This document shows positions 48,401-63,289 of a DNA stretch of 64,000 bases, piece after piece (within the stretch, counting starts at the first letter, position 1; the number at the start of each line of letters is the position of its first letter). Below the pieces are notes generated by a model. It was not told where the DNA came from and did no database searches. It saw only the letters and a program-made list of their open reading frames with translations. The DNA lies in the NCBI RefSeq assembly GCF_019355395.1, contig NZ_CP048829.1, forward strand, positions 3,017,001 to 3,081,000, read 5' to 3'. This DNA is from Chordicoccus furentiruminis (GTDB taxonomy: Bacteria; Bacillota; Clostridia; Lachnospirales; Lachnospiraceae). The translations under genes and the position numbers were made by a program.

Positions 48401-51014
48401 CGATGTGACATTGTACGCAGTCTGGACAGAAGCCTGGATGGTGACGTATGATCCGAACGGCGGAAGCTGGGACGAGGATGGAACGGAATCGGATCCCAGG
48501 ACTGCGGCAATTAAAAAAGGGAATCCTGCAGATGATTTTGGCAATCCAGTTCGCAGAGGATTTGCAGTGGCCGGCTGGAGCACGGACCGGAACGCAGAAG
48601 AACCGGAGATCACGGCTCTTTGGCAGTATGTACCAACAGGTGATGTGACTCTGTACGCAGTCTGGACAGAAGCCTGGACGGTGACGTGTGATCCGAACGG
48701 CGGGTACTGGTATGGTAATGTAACAGAAACGGATCCTCTGTCTTTCGCAATTGCCAAAGGGAAGAGTTATGATGATAATCTTCAGCCAGATCAAAACGGA
48801 TCTGCCATTGTGGGCTGGAGCACAGACCGGAACGCAGAAGAACCGGAGATCACGGATCTTAGCCAGTATGTACCGACAGGTGATGTGACTCTGTACGCAG
48901 TCTGGAAAGAAGCCTGGACGGTGACGCTTGATCCGAACGGTGGTTATTGGGGTGAAGAATCGAAAACGGGAACGATACCCTTTACTGTTGCAAAGGGGGA
49001 TACTGCGTCACGATATTTTCACCCTGACCGTTCCGGGCTCGCATTTGCAGGATGGAGTACGGATCGGAATGCGAAAGAGCCGGATATCAAGGATTTAAAA
49101 ACATTTGTTCCTGCAAGTGATGTGACCCTGTACGCGGTATGGAAAGATGCATGGACTATCACGTTCTATCCGAACTATGAGACAGATAATGATCCTTATG
49201 TCGTTGAGGTTATGAAAGGTTGTTCTGTAGGAGACGACTTAGCTAACAGGCGAGCAAAGGAGAATTGCATCTGTATTGGATGGAGCACGGATCCGAACGC
49301 AACAGAACCCGAGATCAAAGCGGAAGAACTGATAGATTACATTCCGGCCAGCGACATGTCTTTATATGCTGTCTTGAAAGAAGGGTGGAAAATTTATTTT
49401 GACCCGACTGGAGGCAGCTGGTCCATGGATGACAACAAAGAGGCCGATTATATATACCGGGGAGTTCTGAAAGGAGACACGATCGGAGAACCGCCGACGC
49501 CTTATCGCAAAGGCTATTCACTGGCGGGATGGAGTATAGACTTCAACAACTTTATAGCGAAAACACCTGAGATCAGTGCGGATGAAGCTGCTTCTTATAT
49601 TCCGACAAAAGATCTGTACTTGTTAGCGACCTGGACGCTGGACACGGAGAAAGAGCCGAAGGTGGAATACCAGACACATGTCCAGTCGATCGGCTGGCAG
49701 AATCTGGTTTCCGACGGGGAGACAGCCGGCACGACCGGACAGGCGCTTCAGCTGGAAGCGATCCGGATCAAGGTGGAAGGCGGCTCTTCCGGCGGCGTTA
49801 AATACCAGACGCTTGTGCAGCAGGACGGGTGGAATAACTGGGTATCCGACGGAGCCGATTCGGGTACGGTCGGACAGTCGAAACATCTTGAGGCGATCCG
49901 CATCCGTCTGAAGGATGATCTGGAGAAGCAGTATGACGTCTACTACCGGGTTCACGCGGAGCATTTCGGCTGGATGGACTGGGCAAAAGACGGAGAGGCC
50001 GCCGGCACTTCCGGCTATTCGTATTGTCTGGAAGGTATTCAGATCCGGCTCGTGAAGAAAGGTGGTGAAGCGCCCGGAAGCACAGCGACACCGTATCGTT
50101 CGATGCCGACCGTCTCCTATCAGACGCATGTGCAGAGTCAGGGCTGGCAGGAAGAAGTCAGTAACGGAGCCGTTTCCGGGACGGTCGGGAAGAGTCTCCG
50201 ACTCGAAGGAATTAAGATCCGTACCTCCGGGAGTGACGTCAGCGGAGGCATAACGTATAAGACTCATGTGCAGACGTATGGCTGGCAGAACTGGGTGACG
50301 GACGATGCCCTGTCCGGCACGACCGGAGAGTCGAAGCGTCTGGAAGCGATCCAGATCAAGCTTACCGGCGAGCTGGCAAATGAGTTTGATGTTTACTACC
50401 GGGTTCATGCGCAGCATTTCGGCTGGATGGGCTGGGCGAAGAACGGCGCGTCTGCCGGCACAGCGGGATATTCCTATCGTCTGGAGGGAATCCAGATTCA
50501 AATCGTGCCGAAGGGTGGCAAGGCACCCGGAAGCACAGCGACACCGTATCGCGCGATGCCGAAGATCTATTATCAGACACATGTGCAGAAACAGGGCTGG
50601 CAGGCAGAAGTCAGCAGCGGAGCCATTTCCGGAACAGTCGGGCAAAGCCTCCGTCTCGAAGGGATCAAGATCCGCACCTCCGGGAGTGACGTCAGCGGCG
50701 GCATCACATACAAGACCCATGTGCAGACGTATGGATGGCAGAGATGGGTCGCGGACGGTGCTCTGTCCGGCACAATCGGGCAGTCGAAGCGTCTGGAGGC
50801 GATCCAGATGAAACTGACGGGTGCATTGGCAAATGAGTTTGACGTTTACTACCGGGTTCACGCGCAGCATTTCGGCTGGATGGGTTGGGCGAAAAACGGA
50901 GCGTCAGCTGGCACGGCAGGATATGCCTACCGTCTGGAAGGAATCCAGATCCAGCTCGTGCCGAAGGGACAGAGCGCACCCTCGGGAGGCGGAAGGGCTT
51001 TCAGGCAGAAGTGA
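45408..51014 (+). CDS. giant secreted repeat protein: 16 InlB-B-type repeats plus 9 ChW repeats
   Basis: The 1,868-residue protein has a signal peptide (about 1-27, ending WVYAS), an acidic Thr/Ser/Asp/Gly linker (~30-130), sixteen repeats of about 80 residues of the Listeria-Bacteroides/Flg_new type (VTYDPNGGSW ... GYAVVGWST ... DVTLYAVWT) and nine ChW repeats at the C-terminus. ChW domains are found on secreted clostridial proteins and are thought to bind the cell surface or substrates; B-repeats are typical stalk or adhesion modules. There is no LPxTG motif or C-terminal membrane segment, so anchoring would be through ChW. Repeats 1-9 are nearly identical in DNA. Likely a surface adhesin; the target is unknown. 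Confidence 0.88.
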   Translation: MKRLVALLSAAILAVSPFQGQLSWVYASDDVVEVTDGDAADAGSQDTGGQDTTLQGDENEAAPAGEDSGTAVNRPSDTGTAGTDTNLYADDDNGGEVPLNSASAGEPEAVTDSRSEMVVAAESDTDESESYTVTYDPNGGSWDEDGTDSDSRTAAIKKGNPADYYGNPVRKGFAVAGWSTDRNAEEPEITALWQYVPTSDVTLYAVWTEAFTVTYDPNGGSWDEDGTDSDSRTAAIKKGNPADYYGNPVRKGFAVAGWSTERNAEEPEITVLWQYVPTSDVTLYAVWTEAFTVTYDPNGGSWDEDGTDSDSRTAAIKKGNPADYYGNPVRRGFAVAGWSTERNAEEPEITALWQYVPTSDVTLYAVWTEAWMVTYDPNGGNWDEDGTDSDSRTAAIKKGNPADYFNPVRRGFAVAGWSTDRNAEEPEITALWQYVPTSDVTLYAVWTEAFTVTYDPNGGSWDEDGTDSDSRTAAIKKGNPADDFGNPVRRGFAFAGWSTDRNAEEPEITDLRQYVPTSDVTLYAVWTEAWMVTYDPNGGSWDEDGTESDPRTAAIKKGNPADDYDNPVRKGFAVAGWSTDRNAEEPEITALWQYVPTSDVTLYAVWTEAFTVTYDPNGGSWDEDGTDSDSRTAAIKKGNPADYYGNPVRKGFAVAGWSTERNAEEPEITVLWQYVPTGDVTLYAVWTEAWTVTYDPNGGNWDEDSTESDPRTAAIKKGNPADDYDNPVRRGFAVAGWSTERNTEEPEITDLRQYVPTSDVTLYAVWTEAWMVTYDPNGGNWDEDGTDSDSRTAAIKKGNPADYYGNPVRKGFAVAGWSTDRNAEEPEITALWQYVPTSDVTLYAVWKEAWTVTLDPNGGSWPGNLTDTEPSAIAIAKGDRLYFGYLLYRKGYAVVGWSTDKDAQEPEFSNQGNYVPTGDVTLYAVWKEAWTVTCDPNGGYWYGNVTETDPLSFAIAKGKSYDDNLQPDQNGSAIVGWSTDRNAEEPEITDLRQYVPTSDVTLYAVWTEAWMVTYDPNGGSWDEDGTESDPRTAAIKKGNPADDFGNPVRRGFAVAGWSTDRNAEEPEITALWQYVPTGDVTLYAVWTEAWTVTCDPNGGYWYGNVTETDPLSFAIAKGKSYDDNLQPDQNGSAIVGWSTDRNAEEPEITDLSQYVPTGDVTLYAVWKEAWTVTLDPNGGYWGEESKTGTIPFTVAKGDTASRYFHPDRSGLAFAGWSTDRNAKEPDIKDLKTFVPASDVTLYAVWKDAWTITFYPNYETDNDPYVVEVMKGCSVGDDLANRRAKENCICIGWSTDPNATEPEIKAEELIDYIPASDMSLYAVLKEGWKIYFDPTGGSWSMDDNKEADYIYRGVLKGDTIGEPPTPYRKGYSLAGWSIDFNNFIAKTPEISADEAASYIPTKDLYLLATWTLDTEKEPKVEYQTHVQSIGWQNLVSDGETAGTTGQALQLEAIRIKVEGGSSGGVKYQTLVQQDGWNNWVSDGADSGTVGQSKHLEAIRIRLKDDLEKQYDVYYRVHAEHFGWMDWAKDGEAAGTSGYSYCLEGIQIRLVKKGGEAPGSTATPYRSMPTVSYQTHVQSQGWQEEVSNGAVSGTVGKSLRLEGIKIRTSGSDVSGGITYKTHVQTYGWQNWVTDDALSGTTGESKRLEAIQIKLTGELANEFDVYYRVHAQHFGWMGWAKNGASAGTAGYSYRLEGIQIQIVPKGGKAPGSTATPYRAMPKIYYQTHVQKQGWQAEVSSGAISGTVGQSLRLEGIKIRTSGSDVSGGITYKTHVQTYGWQRWVADGALSGTIGQSKRLEAIQMKLTGALANEFDVYYRVHAQHFGWMGWAKNGASAGTAGYAYRLEGIQIQLVPKGQSAPSGGGRAFRQK
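45804..49651 (+). repeat. tandem 240-bp coding repeats (16 B-repeats)
   Basis: Units begin with GTGACG at 45804, 46044, 46284, 46524, 46761, 47001, 47241, 47481, 47721, 47961, 48201, 48441, 48681 and 48921, then two diverged units to 49651. The period is exactly 240 bp except unit 4 (237 bp, one codon lost). Units 1-9 and 12 are almost identical; units 11 and 13 are a second type, near-identical to each other although not adjacent. Confidence 0.92.
49662..50990 (+). repeat. nine ChW repeats in three triads
   Basis: Each unit of about 45 residues has the pattern YxTHVQxxGWQ...G...SGTxGxSxRLEGIxI. They are arranged as three sets of A-B-C, where C is the longer VYYRVHAxHFGWM form; sets 2 and 3 are closest, indicating duplication of a whole triad. 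The third set ends the protein. Confidence 0.88.
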
Positions 51015-51225: not shown

Positions 51226-51572
51226 GGGCTTGTACTGGTTTCGACGGGGGTTTTGAAGTCGAGGAAGCCATCCGCGGGCTGGACCGCGTATCAACCAGAA
51301 CTTAAATTTAAACGCTGACAACAATACTGTTGCAGTAGCGGCCTGAGTGTCGCTCGTCGGCCCGGTTGTACCCGTACTCCCGGTCACCGGCGTCATGATT
51401 ACGGGAAACGACACGGATTAAGCTTTGCGTCCGCGGGCGTAACATGAAGCTACTGAGCTTATGAGGCTGCTGCCTGCCGCTTAAGCGAGGGAATGGAAAC
51501 AAGCAGCTGTGATGGGAGATGCCTTGATGGAGGAGCTTTCGGACGCGGGTTCGATTCCCGCCAGGTCCACCA
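51226..51572 (+). ncRNA. ssrA: transfer-messenger RNA
   Basis: The 347-nt tmRNA rescues stalled ribosomes and tags the nascent chain. Its 5' GGGCTTG pairs with CAGGTCC before the 3' ACCA (seven pairs, two G-U). TGGTTTCGACGGGG near the 5' end and GGTTCGATTCCCGCC near the 3' end are the conserved tRNA-like parts. The tag frame ends GCT GAC AAC AAT ACT GTT GCA GTA GCG GCC TGA (51314-51346), so the peptide ends ADNNTVAVAA; the exact resume codon (AAC 51311 or GCT 51314) is not certain. The 3' end is the island attachment site. Confidence 0.95.
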
Positions 51573-51577
51573 AAAGT
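51563..51577 (+). repeat. attL core, in the ssrA 3' end
   Basis: AGGTCCACCAAAAGT is repeated exactly at 63275-63289. The first ten bases are the ssrA 3' end, so the gene stays intact after integration. Confidence 0.88.
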
Positions 51578-51636
51578 TCGTTATTCAAACCCTGCCCAAA
51601 AAAATTTGAGTAGGATTTGAGTAACTTGTGGATAGA

Positions 51637-51666
51637 ATCAGCGTCTGCTTCGGCAGACGCTGATTT
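51637..51666. terminator. 12-bp hairpin inside the recombinase fragment
   Basis: ATCAGCGTCTGC / GCAGACGCTGAT with a TTCG tetraloop, followed by TTCG on the + strand. It could end ssrA transcription in the island-integrated state. Confidence 0.45.
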
Positions 51667-51919
51667 CGTGTTCTGATTAATCAAATCATGCTCAATTGGG
51701 CCGACGATATTCTTATATATGTCAGTAAATTCTGTAGTTACTGTCCCGTCCTCATGTATCCAGATTCTCTTGAATATAGCTTGACACATGAGTTTTTTAA
51801 TATTATCGTTCGCTTTTCGATAAGTTCTGCCGCAATCCTCGATGAGATCGAAGGCAAGAGACAGATTCTTGAGGATATCATCGAACGTAGTGCTGCGGAC
51901 GCTGATTTCATGTTCAATA

Positions 51920-52429
51920 GCTGAGAGCTGTTTTGATAATGATGTGCTTTATGATCTGTGGCAGATAATTAAGGCTGACGAAACGATTCCGCAGGTGTAT
52001 AAGGACGAGTTCGAAATCCTGAACACTAAAGAGACTCTTGGAAAATTCTTGTCGGAAGTATATGTGTTTTCGCTTACTCGATATAAGAATCCTCGAATCT
52101 TAAAGGCAGTGGTCGAGGATGAAAAACGAACAAAGATACATCCTATGGTTCAACAGGTCATACGAGATATTGCAATTCGGGGCAAAAGCGATATGTTTGT
52201 TCCCGTTCTAGATCTTTTATACCTCTGTATTAGCGATGATACTGAAGAATATGAGCGTATAGGACTTCGCTATCCTGATAGAAAAGCGTTCATTGAAGCA
52301 ACGGGGGATCTGCGTGGTACGTTAGATTCGGAACATGCATTAAAGTACAGCAGATTACTTGATACCTGTTATTTTCATGATTTGAATGAATATAGGAGCT
52401 TCCTGTATGATTCAAATATAGGGACTTGA
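51920..52429 (+). pseudogene. C-terminal fragment of an unknown protein
   Basis: About 170 residues, soluble and helical, containing LGKFLSEVYVFSLTRYKNP and IRGKSDMFVPVLDLLYLCIS. The upstream part of the frame is the complement of the recombinase fragment, so the true N-terminus has been lost at a junction near 51930. I do not recognise the family; segments of this style occur at the C-termini of large island-borne proteins of Clostridia. Confidence 0.5.
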
Positions 52430-52449
52430 AAGAAAGCAGGTGAAAGAAA

Positions 52450-52519
52450 AGATACCTCAATGTAATATAAGGTTTGCTGACCCACGACAGTTAGCAAATC
52501 CATTACAAGAGAGGTATCT
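52450..52519 (+). promoter_or_regulatory. hairpin hiding the transposase ribosome-binding site
   Basis: AGATACCTC (52450-52458) pairs with GAGGTATCT (52511-52519), and further inside GTTTGCT pairs with AGCAAAT. GAGG in the second arm is the ribosome-binding site for the ATG at 52523. RNA entering from outside would fold this way, which is a known means of limiting transposase translation. Confidence 0.65.
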
Positions 52520-52522
52520 GAT

Positions 52523-53803
52523 ATGAAGTCTACCACACAGAACGCAAAGATTGCAGCTATTACGGAAAAAACTTTGATCCTTGGCATCGATGTAGGGAGT
52601 GAAACACACTTCGCACGGGCATTCAACTGGCGGGGATATGAATTCTCCAGAAAGCCGCTGGAATTCAGCAATACAGAGGAAGGGTTCGAGACGTTCCGAG
52701 CCTGGATCATGGAACTGAAGGAAAAGCACGGGATGGACAAGGTAATACCAGGCATGGAGCCGACAGGCCATTACTGGTTCAACCTGGGGAAGTTCCTGCA
52801 GGACAACGGGATGATCCCGGTGCATGTGAATCCCCATCATGTCAAGAAATCGAAGGAACTGGATGACAACAACCCGTCCAAGAACGACCGCAAGGATCCG
52901 AAAGTGATCGCTGGTCTGGTAAAAGACGGAAGGTATTTTCGACCGTACATCCCGGACGGTGTCTACGCAGAGATCAGAGCGTTGTCAGGACTGCAGGTGC
53001 TCGCTCAGAGCGAGATCACAAGACTGAAGAACCGGATCGCCAGATGGTTCAGCATCTACTTCCCGAATTATAAAGACGTTTACGGGAATGTCGGTGCGGT
53101 CAGCGGCCTGATGGTTCTGAAGGTGGCACCACTGCCGGAGGATATCGTAAAACTCGGTGTGGACGGTGTGAACCGGATCTGGAGGGATGCAAAGGTAAGA
53201 GGCGTCGGATTAAAGAGGGCAAAGACCCTGGTAACGGCGGCGGAGCACAGCATCGGAAGCCGGGAAGCACAGGAAGCAGCCAGGGTAGAACTTAAGATCC
53301 TGCTTGCGGACTATGAGATGCAGACGGCGAGGGAAGCAGAGCTGATGGCGCTGATCGAGGAAAAGATCACAGAGGTTCCGTATGTAGATAAGCTTCTGGA
53401 GATTAGAGGCGTAGGTTTGAAAACGGTGGTCGGGTTTGTGGCGGAAGTCGGGGACATTACGCGTTTCGATGATCCCAAACAGCTGCAGAAACTGGCCGGA
53501 TATGCCATCGTGAAGAATGAATCCGGCAAACACAAGGGCGAGAGCCACATCAGCTACCGTGGCCGGAAGCGGCTGAGGTATGTGCTGTATGAAGCGGCGG
53601 TCAGCGTGGTGAGCCACAGTCCGGAATTCCGGTCGATCCACCAGTACTACACGACAAGGGAGAAGAACCCCTTGAAGAAGATGCAGTCGATGATCGCGGT
53701 GGCATGTAAACTGATCCGGGTATTCTATCTGATCCTGCAGACAGGAACGACCTATGACGCGGCGAAGCTGATGGGTGATATCCGGAGACCAGTGGCGGCA
53801 TAA
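52523..53803 (+). CDS. IS110 family transposase
   Basis: The 426-residue transposase has the N-terminal RuvC-like DEDD domain: Asp in LGIDVGSETHFARAF, Glu in PGMEPTGHYWF, and Asp/Asp in SKNDRKDPKVIAG. The C-terminal Tnp20 domain (LLEIRGVGLKTVVGF, KLAGYAIVKNESGKHKG, GRKRLRYVLYEAAVS) holds the catalytic Ser. IS110 enzymes move a dsDNA circle and are guided by a non-coding RNA from the element. The gene is complete. The short upstream and long downstream non-coding ends suggest the IS1111-like subgroup. Confidence 0.93.
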   Translation: MKSTTQNAKIAAITEKTLILGIDVGSETHFARAFNWRGYEFSRKPLEFSNTEEGFETFRAWIMELKEKHGMDKVIPGMEPTGHYWFNLGKFLQDNGMIPVHVNPHHVKKSKELDDNNPSKNDRKDPKVIAGLVKDGRYFRPYIPDGVYAEIRALSGLQVLAQSEITRLKNRIARWFSIYFPNYKDVYGNVGAVSGLMVLKVAPLPEDIVKLGVDGVNRIWRDAKVRGVGLKRAKTLVTAAEHSIGSREAQEAARVELKILLADYEMQTAREAELMALIEEKITEVPYVDKLLEIRGVGLKTVVGFVAEVGDITRFDDPKQLQKLAGYAIVKNESGKHKGESHISYRGRKRLRYVLYEAAVSVVSHSPEFRSIHQYYTTREKNPLKKMQSMIAVACKLIRVFYLILQTGTTYDAAKLMGDIRRPVAA

Positions 53804-54342
53804 GCAGCCAAGACAACAGAGTAACTACTGCTTGCGGCCGGAGCCGGGCATCTGATCCGGCATCAGGGATCCGGTTCCGGTCACGAGCAGGTGACCGGCT
53901 CCCTTATGGGAGTGACGAAAGAAGAAGTTCATCAGGGGAACGTCCACCGAAAGGTGCTGGTGAACGGGAACTGGAGTCAGCAAACAACAAAGAATGAGCC
54001 AGTAGTCGGCAGGAATTATTTCCATAGGGCATGACCCTGATGAGGAGCTAAGCTGACACCCTGGTTATGGGCAGGCGGAACGAAGGAAGTGAGGACCCGG
54101 CGGGAAACCGAAGGTGATCCTGGTAGATACGGGAGGTGCGCTGCCATAGAGGGAAGGGTTATACAACGGCCATGAATATCGGAACAAGTGACGTTCTGAT
54201 TCGTATACCCAAAACACCTCTATTCTTGTACCAGATACTCTGAGATGCCCATCCTTCCGGCTCATTTAGCAGAGGTATAACGTTAAAAAATCCTTGATTT
54301 TCAAGGAAAAATGACTTGACTTTATAGGGAGGGGTATGGCGA
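53804..54342 (+). other. non-coding right end of the IS110 element and sensor-gene leader
   Basis: No protein gene is seen. The first ~170 bases are highly structured (listed separately); 54050-54290 also contains several short stems. The right boundary of the element could not be fixed, because these elements leave no clear inverted repeats or target duplication. Just before the sensor gene, CCTTGATTTTCAAGG (54292-54306) is a small inverted repeat, and AGGGAGGGG is the ribosome-binding site. Confidence 0.5.
53870..53970 (+). ncRNA. candidate guide (bridge) RNA of the IS110 element
   Basis: Three successive hairpins: CCGGTCAC / GTGACCGG (53877-53898), CTCCC / GGGAG (53899-53912), and GTTCATCAG / CTGGTGAAC (53928-53965) enclosing CACC-GAAA-GGTG with a GNRA tetraloop. 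IS1111-like members encode the target- and donor-binding RNA downstream of the transposase. Loop-to-target complementarity was not tested. Confidence 0.45.
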
Positions 54343-56007
54343 ATGACGGAGCGTCAAAGACAAGTCCGAATAAATATCGCAGCATTCTTATTGCTGTTCT
54401 TCGTGTCTCTTTATCGTCAGGTCAGCCTAAGATATTTGCCCGATGATCCATTTAGAACCTATATTCTGTATGCATGCTATTTATTTCTGATTGGTGGGTG
54501 GGCCATATCAATCTGTGTCCGTGTAACCCAAAAAAGCATGCGAACTTTTCTCATGCTTGAAGCGGCGGTCATGCTAGCCGGGCTTACCGTTCGTTTTCTG
54601 CAGGACACCTTCTGGATTGAAAACATTCTACTGATGCGCGTCAGCGGGCTGTCTTTGGAGGCTACCATATTATTAGGTCTGGTACTCAGCATCTATGCCT
54701 CGTTGGGGATCGGACAATGGGACAATTTCCGGGTTCGTAAGAGTTGGCATCTCCTCATGATCCCGGTAATATGGATGGCCTATTTATGCCTTACGGATGA
54801 AAGCCGCCATTTTATGTTTTATACCGTCCCGGAGGAAGTCCAGCCCAATCTGAATTTTCATCCTTATATTGGGACATTCGTGCTATTGGGATTCGGAATT
54901 GTCCTTATGATCGTGCGAGTGCTACTAATATACAAGAGAAACCAACTTGCCGATCGTGGAAAGATACTGAAATGGCTGATTCCATTATTTGAGCCGATCA
55001 TGGTGTTCGTTTTCTCCTTTGAATTTTTTGTGGTGTCCCTACAGCTTCTCCCAAGCCTGGCAAATCTCGAGGTAATTGAGTTGTTTGCAAAAATCTACTA
55101 CATCGAGGTGCTAACATGGGAGTTCTACATCTACATGGGACTAGTCCCCGTTAACACGGAGTATCGGGAGATTTTTGAGCATGCAACGGTCGGAATGCAG
55201 ATCATTGGGGATGACAGGTACAGGTTTTCATCCAAAGCCGCGACAGAGATTTCCCAGGAGCAATTAGCAGAATTGCAAGAAAAAGGCCGTATTGAAGTGG
55301 AGCCGGGCAAAGAGCTACACATGCACAAATTCGCGGACGGGCTATTTCTCTGGAATAAAGACGTATCGCTTCTGCGGAAGACTATCGACGAATTGAACCA
55401 GAGTGCGGAAACCCTGGAACAGGAGGGCGCTCTTTTAGACGAGGAAATCAAAACTAAGAATCAGGAAGCAAGCCTGACAGCGAAAAATCAGATATATGAT
55501 GAATTAACAAGAGAGGTTCAAGGTCAGCTTCGGTTGATGAAGGAAATTACAAAGAAGCGCGATTTGGCGGACAGCAGGAATGCATATCTGCGAGAACTGG
55601 TTCTTCTTGGCACCTACGTAAAACGTCGATGCAATCTGCGGCTGATTCAAAAAGAAACCGGTGAGATTCATGAGGATGATTTAAGGTTTAGCCTTGAAGA
55701 TATGAAGTCTGCAATGAGTCTGCTGGGAATTCAGGCAGAGCTTGATTGGAATCCGAGTAAGCAGTTTTCTGCTGGCTTTTCCATATATATTTTCGATGTG
55801 CTGGAATATCTGTTAGAGTATGAGCGTTTTGCCTTAAAAGAAATCACAATTACTGCAAAACGAGGACAGGTACAGTTCTTGGTAATTAGTGGCGCCAAGA
55901 AGCTTCCAATAGAGTCTATACCGGTTGTCGCTGCAGAAGAGTACACGACAGCCTACCAAGACATTCCGGGTGGATATTTGGTTGTACTTTCGGAAGGCGG
56001 TGAGTGA
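54343..56007 (+). CDS. 7TM sensor protein with degenerate kinase-like C-terminus
   Basis: The 554-residue protein has about seven N-terminal transmembrane segments (residues 10-265), resembling the 7TM sensor module of clostridial histidine kinases. A short PAS-like region (~275-350), a coiled coil (~355-420) and a C-terminal domain follow. The C-terminal domain has YVKRRCNLRLI, typical of these kinases near the DHp helix, but no clear phosphoacceptor His and no N, G1 or G2 boxes. It probably senses a signal and passes it to the adjoining kinase. The next gene starts one base after its stop. Confidence 0.78.
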   Translation: MTERQRQVRINIAAFLLLFFVSLYRQVSLRYLPDDPFRTYILYACYLFLIGGWAISICVRVTQKSMRTFLMLEAAVMLAGLTVRFLQDTFWIENILLMRVSGLSLEATILLGLVLSIYASLGIGQWDNFRVRKSWHLLMIPVIWMAYLCLTDESRHFMFYTVPEEVQPNLNFHPYIGTFVLLGFGIVLMIVRVLLIYKRNQLADRGKILKWLIPLFEPIMVFVFSFEFFVVSLQLLPSLANLEVIELFAKIYYIEVLTWEFYIYMGLVPVNTEYREIFEHATVGMQIIGDDRYRFSSKAATEISQEQLAELQEKGRIEVEPGKELHMHKFADGLFLWNKDVSLLRKTIDELNQSAETLEQEGALLDEEIKTKNQEASLTAKNQIYDELTREVQGQLRLMKEITKKRDLADSRNAYLRELVLLGTYVKRRCNLRLIQKETGEIHEDDLRFSLEDMKSAMSLLGIQAELDWNPSKQFSAGFSIYIFDVLEYLLEYERFALKEITITAKRGQVQFLVISGAKKLPIESIPVVAAEEYTTAYQDIPGGYLVVLSEGGE

Positions 56008-56008
56008 T

Positions 56009-56992
56009 ATGCTACAGAAATTAAAAGAACGCTACCACATATCCAGAATGATTCGAAACGCAATCAATACTTACCCAGATGGTATTTGCTTCGCAGCGAC
56101 AGATGGCAGACCGATTCTAGCAAACAAAAAAATTAACGATGTGTGCTATGAGCTGACCGGGCATACGATCACAAATGCAACGGCAATGTGGCAGACACTT
56201 ATGCTTAAGGCGCTCCCACAAAGCCATGAAGATACCAAAGAGGCAGAGTCTATCCTGTGCAGAATCGAGGATGGGACAGTTTGGCAATTTCAAAGAAGAT
56301 TGCTTCAGGTGAATAAATCTCAGATCACGCAGTATGAGGCGTCGGATATTACAGAGCTATACGAATACAGAAACAGACTCGAGGAAAACAATCGTCGTGT
56401 AGCGGAGCTTCATAACAGGCAGAGGGAGTTGCTGAGGAACATCGTCCAGAATAATCTGGACAAAGAACTGCTCGGCGCCAAGATGCGGATACATGATGTT
56501 TTTGGGCGGCTTCTAATTATGACAAAAAATGTGCTGACGGAAGACAACGATGAACAGAATGAATGGGAGCTCTTCTCCGCCTGGGAAAATGTGATTGCAG
56601 ATATGGAAAATGCGGCGGTTGCTACCGAGACAAGAGAAGTCTCTCCGCAAAAAGAACTGATTCAAGTAGCAGATCTGATTGGTTGTCGGGTAGAATTTCA
56701 AGGAAGACAGCCCCCAGAACGTAAAGCATTATTGTTGTTATACGCTGCTATTCGGGAGGCGCTCACCAATGCAGTAAAACATGCCGGAGCAGATAAGCTG
56801 ACGATTTCCGTTTCTGAGAACAATGGCCGGTATGATGTAGAAATACGAAATAATGGGCGAGCCGTCAATCCGCCGATTCAGGAGGGTGGAGGCTTAAGTA
56901 GCCTGAGAAAAAGATTGGAACAGGATGGTGCGACAATGAGCTATCGCTATAACGGCGCTGTCACGCTCATTCTGACAATTCCAAAGGAGTAG
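56009..56992 (+). CDS. cytoplasmic histidine kinase, NarL type
   Basis: The 327-residue soluble protein has a PAS-like domain (~15-110; SYP-like start, DGICFAATDGRPILANKKIN), a DHp helix with RIHDVFGRLL (phosphoacceptor His in an HD motif, as in HisKA_3), and an HATPase domain: REALTNAVKHAGAD (N box), NNGR, and EGGGLSSLRKRLE (G box). No transmembrane segment is seen, so input probably comes from the 7TM protein encoded just before it. The ATG at 56009 is one base after the previous stop. Confidence 0.88.
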   Translation: MLQKLKERYHISRMIRNAINTYPDGICFAATDGRPILANKKINDVCYELTGHTITNATAMWQTLMLKALPQSHEDTKEAESILCRIEDGTVWQFQRRLLQVNKSQITQYEASDITELYEYRNRLEENNRRVAELHNRQRELLRNIVQNNLDKELLGAKMRIHDVFGRLLIMTKNVLTEDNDEQNEWELFSAWENVIADMENAAVATETREVSPQKELIQVADLIGCRVEFQGRQPPERKALLLLYAAIREALTNAVKHAGADKLTISVSENNGRYDVEIRNNGRAVNPPIQEGGGLSSLRKRLEQDGATMSYRYNGAVTLILTIPKE

Positions 56993-56995
56993 TTT

Positions 56996-57619
56996 ATGGT
57001 AAATGTATTAATTGTGGAGGATTCCAGGATATCCAGAGAAGCCTTTGAAAGACATCTTTCCGCTTCCCCGGAATACTTTGTAATAGCCTCTATTGAGAAT
57101 GCAGCAAACGCTGAGATTGCATGCATACGAAATAAAATAGATTTGATTTTAATGGATGTCTGTACAGTAGACGATGAATCCGGCCTTGTGGCAGCGGCAA
57201 AAATTAAAAGGAATTATCCGCATGTGAAGGTCATTATTATGACTTCTATGCCGGAACACTCTTTTATTCAGAAAGCAAAGGACAGTGGCTGTGACAGTTT
57301 CTGGTACAAGGAACAAGGAAATATTTCCCTTCTCGAAATCTGTGACCGAACAATGAATGGTGAATTTGTTTGGCCGGACAACAGCCCAACGATAATAATC
57401 GGTTTGGCGAAAAGCGACGAATTTACGGATCGGGAATTGGATGTGATTCGCGCTTTAGCGACAGGATATCGTTATGAAGAAATGGCAGCGGTATTGTATA
57501 TGTCGCCGAACACGGTCAAATACCACGTGAAGAACATCTTGCAGAAAACCGGTTTCCGCAGTACGATCCAGCTCGTTGCCGAAGTTGTAGAAAAGCGATT
57601 GGTTCTGCCAAAATACTGA
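56996..57619 (+). CDS. response regulator, NarL/LuxR type
   Basis: The 207-residue regulator has a receiver domain (VLIVEDSRISREAF, LILMDVCTVDDESG with the phospho-Asp, VIIMTSMPEHSFI) and a C-terminal LuxR-type HTH (FTDRELDVIRALATGYRYEEMAAVLYMSPNTVKYHVKNIL). The canonical D-x-x-M region is intact. It starts three bases after the kinase gene. Targets are likely the small membrane protein and lipoprotein genes that follow; this is inferred from position. Confidence 0.92.
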   Translation: MVNVLIVEDSRISREAFERHLSASPEYFVIASIENAANAEIACIRNKIDLILMDVCTVDDESGLVAAAKIKRNYPHVKVIIMTSMPEHSFIQKAKDSGCDSFWYKEQGNISLLEICDRTMNGEFVWPDNSPTIIIGLAKSDEFTDRELDVIRALATGYRYEEMAAVLYMSPNTVKYHVKNILQKTGFRSTIQLVAEVVEKRLVLPKY

Positions 57620-57628
57620 ATATATGCA

Positions 57629-57679
57629 AAAAATCCGCCTCACACGAAAAATTATACTTTTGTGTGGGGCGGATTTTTA
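57629..57679 (+). terminator. strong terminator after the response regulator
   Basis: AAAAATCCGCCTCACAC pairs with GTGTGGGGCGGATTTTT (17 bp, one G-U). Confidence 0.93.
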
Positions 57680-57752
57680 TGTTCAGAGATAAAATGTTGG
57701 AGATGATAGGTTTACTTGCCATACAACTATGAATACGAGAGGAAGATGAACT

Positions 57753-57989
57753 ATGAGAAAGACTTATGCGTACAATTCTATCATTATCGGGGTGCTGGTT
57801 GGACTGCTGGCTTGGGTATCTACGGAGAATGTGGTTCTGGGCATTCTGGCCTGCGTCGGAGTTTCTATCGTCGGCTTTGTAATTATTCGAATCATTGAGA
57901 AAGCCATTGGTAAAGGTGTCGATGCGGCGGCCGATGTGGCGGCAAAGGCGTATCGGAAGCATAAGGAACAGAATGGAGACAAGAAGTAA
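57753..57989 (+). CDS. small membrane protein (pair 1)
   Basis: The 78-residue protein has two transmembrane helices (about 8-26 and 28-48) and a basic, Lys/Asp-rich tail (AYRKHKEQNGDKK). No family was recognised. Its stop overlaps the following lipoprotein start as TAATG, so the two are coupled. A degenerate copy of its 3' end lies at 58310-58357. Confidence 0.7.
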   Translation: MRKTYAYNSIIIGVLVGLLAWVSTENVVLGILACVGVSIVGFVIIRIIEKAIGKGVDAAADVAAKAYRKHKEQNGDKK

Positions 57990-58309
57990 TGAACGGGATA
58001 AAAATACGACGCGCACTTTGCCTTTGTATGATTCTTATTCTGCTTTCTCTACTGCTCACAGCTTGTGGTGACAATAAACTTAGTGGTACATATTATTCCA
58101 CTGATGGTATTTCGCAGATGTTCACATTCAAAGGTGATACAGTAACGATGTCGGCCTTCGGCATTAACGCCACCGGAACATATAAGATTGATGGTGACAA
58201 GATCACAATCAGCTATTCGTTGTTTGGAATACCGTATGATTGGCAGCAATCATTTTCTAAGTCCGGCGATTCGATTTATATCGGCGGTACGCAGTTTATC
58301 AAGGAATAG
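57989..58309 (+). CDS. small lipoprotein (pair 1)
   Basis: The 106-residue protein has a signal peptide with lipobox LLLTAC, then a beta-rich domain: SGTYYSTDGISQMFTFKGDTV and ITISYSLFGIPYDWQQSFS. This YxG-type sheet resembles DUF5640-like small lipoproteins, but I cannot name the family with confidence. It is coupled to the preceding membrane protein. Confidence 0.72.
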   Translation: MNGIKIRRALCLCMILILLSLLLTACGDNKLSGTYYSTDGISQMFTFKGDTVTMSAFGINATGTYKIDGDKITISYSLFGIPYDWQQSFSKSGDSIYIGGTQFIKE

Positions 58310-58357
58310 GCGGAAGTATGCCGGAAGCACAAGTCGCAGAACGGAGGTAAAAGGTAA
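58310..58357 (+). pseudogene. 3' remnant of a duplicated small membrane protein gene (pair 2)
   Basis: The frame reads AEVCRKHKSQNGGKR-stop, matching the tail AKAYRKHKEQNGDKK of the gene at 57753. Its TAA overlaps the next ATG (TAATG), the same junction as in pair 1. Confidence 0.65.
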
Positions 58358-58570
58358 TGCGCAACACGATTAATAAAAGGACGGCGCTTACTGTGACTGT
58401 GCATGGCTGTCTTAATGATCACTTCCCTTAGTGCATGTAAATCGAAAGACAGCGCAACCGTCAGTGCGACGGAAAGTTCGGATTCTACTGATACTGTGGA
58501 AGAAAAATCGGAAAACGGAAACTGGCCCTATGTTTTTTCTCCATATTGGAGACAAGCCTTATTTAGATAT
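58357..58570 (+). pseudogene. frameshifted lipoprotein gene interrupted by an IS (pair 2)
   Basis: The ATG at 58357 gives MRNTINKRTALTVTV, the start of a signal peptide, but the frame ends at a TAG near 58431. In the next frame MAVLMITSLSACKSKDSA continues the signal peptide and lipobox (LSAC), so a one-base change has broken the gene. The IS at 58571 then cuts it at residue ~55. Confidence 0.65.
58563..58570 (+). repeat. 8-bp target site duplication, left copy
   Basis: TTAGATAT; the right copy is at 60482-60489. Confidence 0.9.
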
Positions 58571-58581
58571 GGTAGTGTCAA

Positions 58582-58895
58582 GTCATCTATGAAAACCCAG
58601 AGCCAAAGAAAAAGGCTCCAACGAACCTTGAAAATCTGTAGATATAGTCTGCTGAAGGCTCTCCGAGGGCTTAGGGCGCTGCCCTAAGAACCGGCAAGGG
58701 ACTCGTCCCTTGACCCGGATCCTGGGCTCCGCCCAGACCCGTCCTCGCCGGAAGCAGGGAAAGGCGCAGCGGCCCCTTTCCCTTTACAAGAGGATCATCC
58801 GTGAACCTTATGTCAAGGGACTTTCGCGGCATATCCTCGCGGCTGAAGCCGCTCCGGTATTCCGCGGTTCCCTTGACAACGGTTCCGCTCTCTGC
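58582..58895. other. hairpin-rich non-coding end of the IS
   Basis: Several GC-rich stems in a row: CTTAGGGCGCTGCCCTAAG (58669-58687), AAGGGACTCGTCCCTT, TGGGCTCCGCCCA, and a longer GTCAAGGGA ... TCCCTTGAC pair (58814-58879). They may isolate the element from flanking transcription. Confidence 0.6.
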
Positions 58896-60350
58896 TTATC
58901 CGGCAGCCTCCTGCATCTTTTTAATGGTCTGCTGGCCAAGGAAGATCAACAGCTGCCATTTTCCCGGCATGTTTTCGCCGTTTGCAATGATGTCATTACG
59001 AACCGGCGGCTGGAATTTATGCAGTTTATGCGGCCGCAGAAAGTTGTAGTAAGCCACCCATAGCGCGAGGTCGTAGTTGGCACCATCGTAGTTATTGAAG
59101 CCGTTAGTGGGGCGATAGGAGGTCTTATAAGTGCGGTTGAGACGTTCGATCATCTGCTTATAAGGCCGGAATTCCGTAGAAACAGCATCATCGTTTGTAA
59201 GGCCGAGGACCTGGGTAATCTCAAACTTGAACTTCTCACCAAACTCATGGAAGAATTGCTGGGCGGCGAGAGGATAGGCACTATAACCATCCGCGATGAA
59301 ACGGAAGTTCCCGGGAAGTTTTTTTAGATGCTGAAAGGCCATGCGCATGGCCATGATGCAGGGACCGACACTGCGGCTGTCAGATACCTGATAGCCGATC
59401 ACAGCCCGGGTTGCCGCATTGATGATCAGCCAGATAAAGCCTTTGATGCCGCGGACTTTGATGTAAGTCTCATCAGCAACAAAGGCAGAGCCCTTTTCGT
59501 AAGGGTATGTATCAACAAACGGTTTCACGCAGACGGCGGCAGTCTTACAGTAGTTGGCAACCATCTGGTGGGATATGGAGATGCCGTGGATGTCCTTCAG
59601 GGCCTGCACGGTTTTGCGTAGTGACAGGCCGAGATTCACCCGGTAGGAAAGACACAGGGACATGATATAAGCATTGTTTTTGCTGAATTTCAGCGAGGAC
59701 GCATTCTTCGGCAGGGTGGTGATGTCCATCTTGAAGAAATCGATCGTGAACTCACGGTAGATGTAATGCAGCTTATACTTGTTTTTACCATAATCCTCGT
59801 CCAGATCTGCCCTGTCAACCTTCTTAAGGTTGTGCAGGTAGTAAGGGCATTTAGGATTCACGCATTTATGGATGATGAAGTGCTTCCGGTCTTTCTTACG
59901 AACCAGCGCATGGGAGCAGTAAGGACACTTGAGGGAAAGGGTTTTGGAGAAACGGTTCTCATCTGGCGAAAAGAGGGTTCCGCAGACCTTGCACATCAAC
60001 TGGCCGGCTTTGCCGTTGTTACGGTACAGGTAAGGCTGAGGCGCTTTGCAGGCGGGGCAGGTGCAATGCTCCGGGATATCGCACTCAGAGCGGCGGCGGA
60101 CAGGCTGAACGGGTTTTCCGTATTTCCACGCGTAGTAGCGATTGAGATCCTGCCAGTCCCAATCCTGGTGATGGTAGATGATCCTGGGAAGCTGGTCCAC
60201 CTTGAATTTCTGATACCTGGGGGAATGGGAATCATCAAAGGTCCACTGCTTAAGCGGGATATATCTGCAGATAAAGTTAACCAGCCAGCAGTTTTGCTGA
60301 TAAAGCTGATGGCACAACTGAAGAAGATAAAGTATAATGTTCACGAGCAT
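58896..60350 (-). CDS. DDE transposase with zinc ribbon
   Basis: The 484-residue transposase has an N-terminal region with several CxxC pairs (CTCPACKAP, CKVCGTLF, KCPYCSHAL), then the RNase-H-like DDE domain: VADETYIKVRGIKGFIWLIIN (first Asp), RFIADGYSAYPLAAQ (second Asp), and KQMIERLNRTYKTSYRP (Glu). The DETY...DGYSAY...ERLNR pattern and the 8-bp target duplication point to the IS6/IS240-like group. It looks intact. Confidence 0.88.
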   Translation of the reverse strand: MLVNIILYLLQLCHQLYQQNCWLVNFICRYIPLKQWTFDDSHSPRYQKFKVDQLPRIIYHHQDWDWQDLNRYYAWKYGKPVQPVRRRSECDIPEHCTCPACKAPQPYLYRNNGKAGQLMCKVCGTLFSPDENRFSKTLSLKCPYCSHALVRKKDRKHFIIHKCVNPKCPYYLHNLKKVDRADLDEDYGKNKYKLHYIYREFTIDFFKMDITTLPKNASSLKFSKNNAYIMSLCLSYRVNLGLSLRKTVQALKDIHGISISHQMVANYCKTAAVCVKPFVDTYPYEKGSAFVADETYIKVRGIKGFIWLIINAATRAVIGYQVSDSRSVGPCIMAMRMAFQHLKKLPGNFRFIADGYSAYPLAAQQFFHEFGEKFKFEITQVLGLTNDDAVSTEFRPYKQMIERLNRTYKTSYRPTNGFNNYDGANYDLALWVAYYNFLRPHKLHKFQPPVRNDIIANGENMPGKWQLLIFLGQQTIKKMQEAAG

Positions 60351-60481
60351 TGCCTCTTTTGTGTAGTGAAGGTTTGGTCGCTGACATTATACCAAAAAGG
60401 GAGGACAATGCTCTTTTTATTTGCACCTCCCGTAAAATCAAGAGATTCGCACTATAAACAGGTGGTGAATTTGACACTACC

Positions 60482-60489
60482 TTAGATAT
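60482..60489 (+). repeat. 8-bp target site duplication, right copy
   Basis: TTAGATAT, identical to 58563-58570. Confidence 0.9.
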
Positions 60490-60504
60490 TTTGGAGGTCT
60501 AATT

Positions 60505-60984
60505 ATGATTTGGTTTGTTTTGCTTATTGTAGCCGCAGTGATGGGCGTGGTGATTTATTTCGCTATGAAATCCCACAATAAGATGGTAGCTGACGGCAAG
60601 ATTATTAGCAGACGCACAAATTTCATGGAGAGCGCCGAGGAGTTCACTCTTTCAGCGGTCGATCCCGCACGGGTTACCGAGGCGGTCAAAGCAATAGACT
60701 ATGCCGAAATGCGTACAAAGATGCAAGGCAGCAACGAACAGCAGCTTTTCAAATTTACCGGCAGCACTTGGTCGGCACAGCTTCATAAGCTTAGAGATAA
60801 CGGCACGCAGGTTGTATATCGTTTTGAGTTTACCAACTGGAAAACACATAATGGAATGCCGCAGGACGGCCTAAACATGAACAAGCTGACGACTGCCGTG
60901 GAGAAGATATTCTTGAGTCTAGATCCCAATACACAGGTACGGACGGTTCCGCTGGAGTTTAAGACCAAACACAGCATTTTGTAA
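60505..60984 (+). CDS. membrane-anchored protein of unknown function
   Basis: The 159-residue protein has one N-terminal transmembrane helix (2-20) and a cytoplasmic- or exterior-facing soluble domain (SAEEFTLSAVDPARVTEAVKAIDY, FTGSTWSAQLHKLRDNG, VVYRFEFTNWKTHNG). No family could be named. GGAGG is just upstream of the ATG. With the IS removed, the broken lipoprotein frame would run into this ATG in frame, so the original junction is uncertain. Confidence 0.65.
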   Translation: MIWFVLLIVAAVMGVVIYFAMKSHNKMVADGKIISRRTNFMESAEEFTLSAVDPARVTEAVKAIDYAEMRTKMQGSNEQQLFKFTGSTWSAQLHKLRDNGTQVVYRFEFTNWKTHNGMPQDGLNMNKLTTAVEKIFLSLDPNTQVRTVPLEFKTKHSIL

Positions 60985-60996
60985 GGAGGATCAAAC

Positions 60997-61194
60997 ATGT
61001 CCGATGGTATGATAGTCGCTTTGGCTTTTGTTTGTATAGGCTTGCTGGTGGTAGTGGTTGGCTTTATTGGAAACAAGATCGTAGATAAAGGATCGGATGC
61101 AATTCGCAACAAAGCTGTGCGCAAGAAGAATTTAGGGAATCCGAGCGAACCGGAAAGCCTTGCGGATCGCTTCGAGAACGGCCGGAAATTATGA
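60997..61194 (+). CDS. small membrane protein (pair 3)
   Basis: The 65-residue protein has one transmembrane helix (about 6-25) followed by a charged tail. AAGGAGG precedes the ATG. It overlaps the following lipoprotein gene by four bases, the same membrane-protein plus lipoprotein layout as at 57753-58309, although the sequence is not clearly similar. Confidence 0.62.
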   Translation: MSDGMIVALAFVCIGLLVVVVGFIGNKIVDKGSDAIRNKAVRKKNLGNPSEPESLADRFENGRKL

Positions 61195-61490
61195 TGAAAT
61201 ATGCAAAAATTATTACCCTCCTATTGGCAGTGTTTATGGCTCTGTCGCTCTCGGCATGCGGCAAGAAAATGAGCGAGGAAGAAATGGAAGAGGCTTGCGT
61301 CAACGCAAGGCCATCGATTGTACCAGCAATCCAATCAGGAGGTCTAATGCAATTAAAAGGCATCTTATGCACCTATGCACTAGAATACAACCAGGATTAT
61401 CCCGGTCAGGATCCGTTCGCGGAGATTCTCGCAGATTATCGTATGCAGCAACCGGGCGCGAATCCTATCATAATGTTTACATTGATCTAA
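61191..61490 (+). CDS. lipoprotein, probably truncated and fused (pair 3)
   Basis: The 99-residue product has a signal peptide with lipobox LSLSAC, then KKMSEEEMEEACVNARPSIVPAIQSGG. It ends shortly after the point where sequence switches to a helicase fragment (near 61460), so its C-terminus may not be original. Confidence 0.6.
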   Translation: MMKYAKIITLLLAVFMALSLSACGKKMSEEEMEEACVNARPSIVPAIQSGGLMQLKGILCTYALEYNQDYPGQDPFAEILADYRMQQPGANPIIMFTLI

Positions 61491-61837
61491 GTAGAAAGAC
61501 TAGCCGACAGCTAGCTAATATTGCGATAGTAAAGCAGAAAATAGAAGAAGATTTCGTAAGTTTCAAGTTGCGTATGTTCTTCCAACTGATGCTGGACTAT
61601 TCCATTTTGAATGAGGATGAGTACTACGAAATCCTTTATGGCACGACCGATAGGAAGAAAATATATCTTGTAAAGACGGGTTTAACGATCAATTTGATCA
61701 ATCGGCTAGAGAAAGACGACCAGTTAAAGAACATCACATTCGACAGAAATGGAAATCTTGCTACGAATGATTTGTTTGATGATTACCTAAAAGAAGCTGA
61801 TGATTTTTATAGGTTTGAGCTAAGCCGCTTTCTATGA
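61466..61837 (+). pseudogene. C-terminal fragment of a helicase-like protein
   Basis: In a different frame from the lipoprotein, about 123 residues read HNVYIDLSRKTS, FKLRMFFQLMLDYSILNEDEYY, INLINRLEKDDQLKNI and DDFYRFELSRFL. This matches my recollection of the C-termini of large DEAD/DEAH helicases found on mobile islands. No start or N-terminal motor domain is present. Family assignment is moderate. Confidence 0.5.
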
Positions 61838-61911
61838 TTCCGATAGCATCTTGAACTTTAATGATCTGAAAATAAGATCAAAAAGCGTTAAACTCATGCT
61901 TTTATAGTTTT

Positions 61912-61939
61912 TTGGAAAGGATTATCTTACTTATATAAT
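61912..61939 (+). promoter_or_regulatory. promoter of the leader ORF / acetyltransferase
   Basis: TTGGAA (61912-61917), 16-bp spacer, TATAAT (61934-61939). Confidence 0.6.
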
Positions 61940-61956
61940 TAAACGGGAGACTCGAC

Positions 61957-62037
61957 ATGTTCGAGAAAATAAGTTGGTGGATACATGCATTATGGGGGCG
62001 ATATAAGCTCTGTAGGAAACTGAGGAAAATGCCCTAA
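61957..62037 (+). CDS. 26-residue cationic leader peptide candidate
   Basis: ATG at 61957 with GGGAG 7 bases upstream. The peptide is MFEKISWWIHALWGRYKLCR followed by KLRKMP: three Trp in the first half and seven Lys or Arg overall. It may be a regulatory leader for the resistance-type gene behind it, or a small membrane-active peptide. Its size makes chance occurrence possible. Confidence 0.4.
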   Translation: MFEKISWWIHALWGRYKLCRKLRKMP

Positions 62038-62123
62038 ACCCCAGTTCGTTAAGCGTCGACCGCGTAGAATTATGCCCCGCCAGCCATTATAATAGAAATA
62101 AAACCAGAATAATGAGGTAATAA

Positions 62124-62765
62124 ATGAAGGACGGAAAACATCCAGATCCGAATGCGGTGCATCCGATTGCGGGATACAATAAGGAAATCTACGTAAAGCC
62201 AACAATCAGGAATCCGAATATTGTAGTCGGCGACTTTACTTATATTGCGGATTCCGAATTCGAAAGTCATGTGACCCATCTTTATGAGTGGAATGGAGAC
62301 AAACTAATTATTGGAAAGTTCTGTCAGATTGCGGCCGGAGTTGAGTTCGTGATGAATGGCGCAAATCATCAGATGAATGCCGTATCGACATTTCCGTTCT
62401 ACACGCTTGAGGGTTGGGATATGGAGCCTCCAAAACCATCTGACTTGCCACTTAAAGGCGATACGGTGGTTGGAAATGATGTGTGGATCGGCCAAGATGC
62501 CGTAATTCTTCCGGGTGTACATATAGGCGATGGCGCTATCATTGGTGCGAATTGCGTTGTTGGCAGAGATGTAGCTCCATATACGATTGTAATTGGGAAT
62601 CCGGCGCGTGATCTTCGCAATCGATTCGATGATGAGCTGATTGATCTATTGCTCCAGTTCAAGTGGTGGAATAAGAGTATTGACGAAATCAATACCCTCA
62701 TTCCGCTTCTTACGGATAGTGATTTAGAGAAAGTTAAAGCAGAGCTGAAGAATCGATTAAGCTAA
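62124..62765 (+). CDS. Vat/CatB-type xenobiotic O-acetyltransferase
   Basis: The 213-residue left-handed beta-helix enzyme resembles streptogramin A acetyltransferases. KLIIGKFCQIAAGVEFVMNGANHQM carries the catalytic His (in NGANH), and GDTVVGNDVWIGQDAVILPG, then VHIGDGAIIGANCVV are hexapeptide coils. The Trp-Trp near KWWNKSID matches the Vat C-terminus. Substrate is likely a streptogramin, chloramphenicol or another hydroxyl compound; sequence alone does not say which. GAGG precedes the ATG. Confidence 0.82.
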   Translation: MKDGKHPDPNAVHPIAGYNKEIYVKPTIRNPNIVVGDFTYIADSEFESHVTHLYEWNGDKLIIGKFCQIAAGVEFVMNGANHQMNAVSTFPFYTLEGWDMEPPKPSDLPLKGDTVVGNDVWIGQDAVILPGVHIGDGAIIGANCVVGRDVAPYTIVIGNPARDLRNRFDDELIDLLLQFKWWNKSIDEINTLIPLLTDSDLEKVKAELKNRLS

Positions 62766-62772
62766 TAGATTC

Positions 62773-63285
62773 TTATTTCTTCGGATACTCCCAGCTCTTG
62801 CGGATATAAATCCCGTTTTCTTTCAATACTTGCCGTACCGTACCGCAGTCGAGCCCTACTATGGTTCCGACCTCTTTTGGAGTCTTCATCTGCGCATACA
62901 GAGCTATCACCTTCTTGACGAGTTCAGGCTTCGTGGATGCTTTATGTGATACCTCTACGCCATTACGTTTTAATACTGCACTAATAGTACTTCTGTGACA
63001 CTCGAAGTCTTTGGCCAATTTATATACCGAGTCCCCGGACTGATATCTTTTGCATATGGCTTGGACTTCTAGTTCTGATAAACTTTTTTGCTTTTGCCGT
63101 ATGCGACATACTTCAGTCTCGCCATAGACATTTTGGCGTTTTGGTGATATATTATCTCTAGCTGGCGGGTTTGTTTTTTTGGCCAGATTGTCCAAATTGC
63201 TGCCAATATTCAGTGGATTGATGCTTTCTTTGAATTTCCGTATCTGTAGAAACGGGTTTGAATAAAGTTGCGATAGGTCCACCAA
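62773..63285 (-). CDS. helix-turn-helix protein crossing attR, likely recombinase C-terminal extension
   Basis: Frame open from the attR core into the island, stop at 62773; only TTG (63285) or GTG (63282) starts exist, both inside the core. About 170 residues: a linker, then LSELEVQAICKRYQSGDSVYKLAKDFECHRSTISAVLKRNG, a resolvase-type HTH, then a second HTH-like segment (KTPKEVGTIVGLDCGTVRQVL). In the excised circle it joins the serine recombinase fragment in frame. As it stands it may be unexpressed. Confidence 0.6.
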   Translation of the reverse strand: MVDLSQLYSNPFLQIRKFKESINPLNIGSNLDNLAKKTNPPARDNISPKRQNVYGETEVCRIRQKQKSLSELEVQAICKRYQSGDSVYKLAKDFECHRSTISAVLKRNGVEVSHKASTKPELVKKVIALYAQMKTPKEVGTIVGLDCGTVRQVLKENGIYIRKSWEYPKK

Positions 63286-63289
63286 AAGT
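63275..63289 (+). repeat. attR core
   Basis: AGGTCCACCAAAAGT, identical to 51563-51577. Confidence 0.88.

Follow-up and report, generated by a model that had tools for sequence, protein, structure and literature searches.

An element family whose attachment site appears to lie inside its own serine recombinase gene: a decayed island of Chordicoccus furentiruminis and its relatives

Introduction

Why do two reading frames at opposite ends of a genomic island run into the same short attachment core in the same phase? The question is raised by a stretch of 64,000 nucleotides from Chordicoccus furentiruminis (Lachnospiraceae; contig NZ_CP048829.1, positions 3,017,001 to 3,081,000), here called the window, whose own numbering is used below. 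At the end of the island that adjoins ssrA, the transfer-messenger RNA (tmRNA) gene, the frame is that of a large serine recombinase fragment; at the far end it belongs to an open reading frame (ORF) with helix-turn-helix (HTH) segments. An earlier annotation made from the letters of the window (the sequence-only reading) had proposed that attP, the attachment site of the circular form, lies inside the recombinase gene, and that integration swaps the C-terminus of the enzyme. The analysis reported here supports this explanation with a probability of about 0.8: the island would be a decayed member of an element family that carries attP in frame inside its own serine recombinase gene and splits the gene upon integration. 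Sequence comparison shows the position of attP, the phase, the two ends, the natural fused copies and selection on the HTH part.

The two ends of the island

Two copies of the 15-mer AGGTCCACCAAAAGT, starting at 51563 and 63275 of the window, form an exact direct repeat bounding the island. It is the longest word common to the two flanks (15 nucleotides), compared with a maximum of 13 and a mean of 8.3 in 200 shuffles of one flank. Since ARAGORN places the tmRNA gene at 51226 to 51572 on the + strand, the core overlaps the final 10 bases of this gene. Both minus-strand frames, that of the recombinase fragment and that of the HTH ORF, read the core as a|CTT|TTG|GTG|GAC|CT in identical phase. 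Repeat count, shuffles and translation therefore confirmed the repeat and the same-phase meeting of the two frames. The features concerned are as follows.

51226 to 51572, + strand: tmRNA gene (ssrA), its 3′ end being the attB target (ARAGORN)
51563 to 51577: att core at the ssrA end, attL (exact 15-bp direct repeat)
63275 to 63289: att core at the far end, attR (exact 15-bp direct repeat)
51568 to 51933, − strand: C-terminal fragment of a large serine recombinase, without the catalytic, recombinase and zinc-ribbon parts (translation; identity to locus L040, below)
51481 to 51567, − strand: tail of the recombinase frame, from antisense ssrA (reading frame)
62773 to 63282, − strand: stranded C-terminal half, a linker and two HTH domains, starting at the core GTG codon (ORF, HTH_38, selection, model)

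At attL, the fragment is open on the minus strand from about 51933 through the core, and the core Val is followed by 28 residues up to a stop in antisense ssrA. The end in antisense ssrA was as first described; the fragment itself extends further upstream than had been stated. At attR, the frame starts VDLSQLYSNP... and ends at 62773.

The fragment gave no Pfam or NCBIfam match above cut-off, the only match being to GSKIP, sub-threshold (E 0.016). It is identified as a recombinase by its relatives and not by domain matches: over 122 residues it shares 99% identity with the end of the L040 serine recombinase, itself N-terminally truncated, and it also matches the corresponding part of intact relatives. 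The catalytic domain and the others upstream of the fragment are absent from the window, and a search of the genome with the fragment matched only the window place, no second copy being found. For these reasons the window copy is a relic, in agreement with the loss of the N-terminal catalytic part noted earlier.

Recombinase ends in related genomes

Recombinase ends with a visible core were compared at 19 places, window included. Outside this count are L067/L101, L069/L100, L071/L134, L135 and L136, and likewise the fused copies L013, L018, L039 and L059 described below. In 18 of the 19 ends, one open frame leads from the recombinase sequence upstream across the core, so that the recombinases of these relatives do not stop before the att core. 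In the exception, L047, a nonsense codon lies 37 codons before the junction motif; homology persists beyond it, and the partner HTH is frame-shifted too. Past the core Val or Leu, the recombinase frame continues for 12 to 65 codons. At L067/L101, the contig breaks off precisely at the core's recombinase side, a pattern that a population mixed between circular and integrated forms could give.

RNA genes with ARAGORN coordinates are found at 16 ends: tmRNA (10), tRNA-Ala (4), tRNA-Val (1) and tRNA-Leu (1). In 13 of these, the end of the RNA gene lies 2 bases ahead of the core codon; the phase is the same in 14, L068 and L140 being different. The tRNA-Leu of L102 was located as L093, while L026 and L103 were judged by sequence. 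In the examples here, recombinase C-termini of the type G-[IVL]-EP are read-through into antisense RNA genes. As a control, 21 more distant recombinases were inspected (L075 and L093 were left out of this count, their central ORF not being the recombinase), and 19 have no RNA gene at their end. The other two, L089 and L094, also end inside antisense tmRNA or tRNA-Glu; the split may therefore occur in several lineages.

Resolvase, Recombinase and zinc-ribbon domains stand in one protein in all eight relatives scanned (L059, L028, L026, L068, L128, L129, L131, L132), and the integrated short forms retain all three core domains in 7/7 (L026, L028, L068, L128, L129, L131, L132). These counts bear on two other explanations. 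In the first, integration would inactivate the enzyme and trap the element, as for the ‘suicidal’ integrases of SSV type, whose gene is likewise partitioned between the element ends (PMC8371274; for this and all papers cited below, statements refer to the passages that match the present subject). This is unlikely, because the catalytic domain lies in the part left whole and the three core domains are kept in every short form scanned. In the second, attP happened into the 3′ part of the gene as a passive accident, the long tail serves no purpose and the enzyme acts alike in either form. The same counts speak for it, since a tail would be dispensable for an enzyme whose core stays intact; it is taken up again with the HTH half.

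Two-ended elements and natural fused copies

A scan of species genomes with an alignment of the HTH part gave 43 loci, and a recombinase search of 17 of the genomes behind them matched in 12. In Massiliimalia massiliensis, one 811,821-base contig carries the start of the HTH half at 326,085 and the crossing of the core by the recombinase frame at about 359,926, the halves standing at opposite ends of an element of about 33.8 kb. In Microbacterium sp. USTB-Y, the HTH half (366,559) and the recombinase (347,230) share a 448,201-base contig and delimit an element of about 19.3 kb. These two recombinases run into antisense tmRNA and antisense tRNA-Ala, and all three core domains are present. Because genes for an MT-A70 methyltransferase, a type IV coupling ATPase and Replic_Relax precede the recombinase in Massiliimalia and in L059, this type of element looks like an integrative mobilizable or conjugative element. 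The Microbacterium ORFs resemble those of Massiliimalia and L059 in size and order.

Rejoining the two cores, as in an excised circle, had been predicted to give one continuous recombinase-HTH ORF. Such frames exist naturally. In L013 and L018, a single open frame leads from the recombinase end across the core into the HTH part; L039 shows a shorter stretch of this fused frame, and in L028 the fused junction is interrupted by an in-frame stop. The copy L055/L059, obtained from the search of 392 genomes of the order, is an intact frame of 760 codons with Resolvase, Recombinase, Zn_ribbon_recom, HTH_23/HTH_38 and HTH_7 domains. These copies also settle whether an unrelated HTH gene might simply have met the repeat in phase in the window: phase agreement by itself has a probability of 1/3, but the same junction recurs at many loci and in the natural fused frames, which refute coincidence and leave it next to no chance.

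The HTH half: domains, selection and start

In 33 of the 43 loci, a core-like start ([VML]-[DGEA]-L) leads in frame into the HTH homology, 30 of them being recognized by pattern and three (L023, L025, L033) found later. The recombinase end precedes the core in four of these 33 (L013, L018, L028, L039). At the remaining in-frame loci the upstream DNA is, as judged by eye, locus-specific and often carries an inverted terminator-like hairpin, as expected if integration displaced the terminator of the target RNA gene. Many loci come from draft metagenome assemblies, and pattern scans miss divergent members.

The HTH ORF of the window matches HTH_38 (E 1.3e-8). Its AlphaFold2 model has a mean predicted local distance difference test score (pLDDT) of 71, with blocks of 77–92 across residues 71–169, and comprises a disordered linker and two three-helix HTH domains.

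62965 to 63075, − strand: first three-helix HTH domain, residues 70–106 (AlphaFold2 model; HTH_38)
62818 to 62928, − strand: second three-helix HTH domain, residues 119–155 (AlphaFold2 model)

Profile relatives with solved structures are 8vd6 (CAP repeat, E 9.7e-13) and 2lvs (CRISPR-repeat-binding protein, E 2.6e-10), together with a weak one, the serine recombinase Bin3 (2r0q, E 0.0045). Foldseek returned weak hits only (best E 0.012), the top ones being 2lvs and the DNA-binding domain of Tc3 transposase.

Selection was estimated as omega, the ratio of non-synonymous to synonymous substitution rates, in 19 hand-picked, non-independent pairs, of which three are saturated; some records of clostridial type are labelled Saccharibacteria. 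With the first 18 codons set aside, the HTH part has an omega of 0.066–0.193 in all 13 unsaturated clostridial-type pairs and is thus under purifying selection as a protein. This selection, the two well-predicted HTH domains and the presence of the arrangement in clostridial and actinobacterial genomes argue against a passive split, which we hold to be unlikely.

The stranded half could also be an independent gene, for instance for an excision factor or a repressor, with translation beginning at the core GTG or ATG in integrated copies, the fusion in the circle being secondary. The core codon is GTG or ATG in 28/28 aligned HTH ORFs, although this set was picked with V or M at that position and L023, outside the set, has TTG; the window ORF has a Shine-Dalgarno match of 5 bases, 7 bases ahead of the core codon. 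However, the core itself accounts for ATG or GTG. Shine-Dalgarno matches are not in excess, those of at least 5 bases preceding the core codon in just two of the 28 ORFs (window and L045) against a background of 3.3%; the upstream DNA varies between loci except at the four fused junctions, again by eye; and fused frames exist. Nor was any start codon common to all seen inside the 28 ORFs, so that the HTH part is not always a separate gene with its own start within the island. An independent gene is therefore improbable. Being selected as a protein and having no conserved start of its own, the HTH part would most simply be selected as the tail of a long enzyme.

Arms of attP

In a free-register scan for symmetry of the arms flanking the core, 5 of 11 pairs reached p < 0.05, and the same register was best in 9 of 11. 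At fixed register, with the pair formed by the L028 recombinase end and the L028 HTH dropped and two isolates added, the inner arms are inverted repeats at 96 of the 144 positions compared in 12 elements or junctions, the maximum in 2000 null sets being 61. The eight best of the 153 registers scanned have one common centre, in the core GTGGAC. In the window, the arms are symmetric at 12/12 positions.

51581 to 51592: inner attP arm on the recombinase side, TTATTCAAACCC on the + strand (12/12 positions symmetric to the other arm)
63254 to 63265: inner attP arm on the HTH side, GGGTTTGAATAA on the + strand (12/12 positions symmetric to the other arm)

In most members, the arms fall in coding sequence on both sides.

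A probable split of the enzyme upon integration

Taken as a decayed integrative mobilizable (or conjugative) element, the island would have carried attP directly upstream of the module encoding the two C-terminal HTH domains. Read from the circle (or a tandem copy), the gene would encode a long enzyme made of resolvase, recombinase and zinc-ribbon domains, an att-encoded peptide, the linker and the two HTH domains. Integration, mostly at the 3′ end of a tmRNA or tRNA gene, would break the reading frame within the core, leaving at one end an enzyme that keeps its catalytic and att-binding domains and gains a short tail from the antisense strand of the host RNA gene, and at the other the two-HTH module, stranded and with no start of its own.

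We infer that the long and short forms behave differently, and that the swap may be a working switch rather than a mere consequence of the position of attP. Our preferred guess is that the HTH module aids integration or restrains the enzyme in the circle, its loss leaving a short form suited to later excision. A more complete version, in which the long form of the circle integrates (or restrains itself), the short integrated form excises, and the state of the DNA controls directionality with no separate factor, is put forward tentatively and is rather doubtful. A conserved function for the host-derived tail is unlikely, since these tails vary in length and sequence.

Several observations weigh against the proposed explanation. 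The fused copies L013, L018, L028 and L039 are relic or partial. No excised circle was seen: the L055/L059 contig (15,604 bases) has neither terminal overlap nor a tRNA, and this copy may be a free circle, a tandem copy or something else. In genome G479, the recombinase ends in antisense tRNA-Leu and the HTH half was not found. Among the 43 HTH loci, four have the core and a broken frame (L012, L032, L041, L047), three have no core (L010, L048, L049) and three are cut by a contig end (L009, L014, L031). The three unsaturated actinobacterial pairs give a higher omega for the HTH part, 0.28–0.54. As for the arms, the fixed register was picked after the free scan, and the window, L007 and L040 are near-identical in that test; moreover, the arms are not seen in every member, since Microbacterium scores 0/12 and L039 6/12 (p 0.10).

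Comparison with known systems

The closest precedents concern other enzymes or other genes. The SSV-type integrases (SSV1, pTN3, pT26-2) are archaeal tyrosine recombinases with attP in their own gene; integration partitions the gene, the parts being found at both element ends, and the halves are described as inactive (PMC8371274). The present family shares the site inside the gene and the partitioning of the gene to both element ends, but it involves a bacterial serine recombinase that keeps its whole catalytic core and exchanges its C-terminus. Self-splitting integrases, called exclusive to archaea in the matching passages of that review (PMC8371274), would thus extend to bacteria and to the serine family, with the catalytic core spared.

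In the integration-dependent immunity of mycobacteriophages and relatives, attP lies in the ORF of the repressor, and the integrase is a tyrosine recombinase in the described examples; the part lost is typically an ssrA-like degradation tag (PMC8092301, PMC9934374, PMC6109161). As here, attP is inside an ORF and the free and integrated products differ at their C-terminus; unlike there, the gene that is split is the integrase itself and the part lost is a two-HTH module. A reading of their ends for an ssrA-like tag found none of the 28 aligned HTH ORFs ending in AA; many end in WEYPKK or similar. A repressor role for the long form is compatible with these data.

Engineered fusions of the phiC31 and Bxb1 integrases with a recombination directionality factor (RDF) provide a third comparison. 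A domain is joined to the C-terminus of a serine integrase and alters the direction of the reaction, the C-terminal RDF conferring attL × attR activity; those fusions are artificial, while the fused form here is natural and belongs to the circle (PMC5737554). By analogy, an RDF role of that kind appears unlikely for the HTH module: with the fused form in the circle and the engineered fusions gaining attL × attR activity, such a module would act in reverse.

Serine-recombinase elements in tRNA genes of Actinobacteria, which are called rare, resemble the present ones by a large serine recombinase at a tRNA gene; unlike here, no split C-terminus is described, as far as the matching passages of that paper go (PMC3218068). 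The sequence-only reading knew of no description of the arrangement. For bacterial serine integrases this holds in the open-access literature, where no case with attP inside the integrase gene was found, most subscription journals lying outside the search; precedents exist in other enzyme and gene families.

The family offers a direct test of how serine integrases sense their state, usually ascribed to separate directionality factors. In practice, anyone mining recombinases from such integrated elements would clone a host-derived tail where the true C-terminus should be.

Distribution and targets

Counting the window's own, 5 of the 299 genomes searched in the family matched, as did 7 of 392 in the order. 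At wider rank, among 391 genomes from the class and 398 from the phylum, the window's own copy was the only match. The window HTH ORF as a query had no match in phage and plasmid records. Queries with L055 and L034 gave distant hits only in such records, namely plasmid HTH genes and phage places often annotated as endonucleases. Scans of viral contigs returned five weak or distant loci (L050, L064, L065, L159, L160), which were rejected as members: compared with L059, the recombinase parts of L064 and L065 are 27–28% identical, and the HTH part is present in none.

In Faecalicatena contorta ET52 (L002/L023), the HTH half starts within an interrupted gene resembling that of a substrate-binding protein. 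Because of this position in a protein-like gene, targets may extend beyond RNA genes. Weaker HTH matches (L106, L107, L108, L109) were found in G504, G528, G346 and G514, genomes with a related recombinase. L106 and L108 are short ORFs with one HTH that may represent a second type of stranded tail.

Other genes of the island and its neighbourhood

Neither the ORF list nor the domain scans of the window proteins revealed transfer genes in the window island. Two transposase genes lie inside it, one of IS110 (52523 to 53803, +) and one IS6-like, below its family cut-off (58896 to 60350, −); both are possible agents of the decay of the island. Three ORFs at 54343 to 57619 (+) encode an undefined protein of 554 residues, one that resembles sensor kinases, and a response regulator whose HTH is of LuxR type. 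The Massiliimalia element holds a three-gene set of similar appearance, which suggests a common cargo of the two elements.

Adjoining the HTH half, a gene at 62124 to 62765 (+) encodes an acetyltransferase of the streptogramin A (Vat) type (267 bits, family cut-off 300) and is a possible resistance gene. Directly upstream of ssrA, 45408 to 51014 (+) encodes a repetitive protein of 1868 residues with many near-identical repeats.

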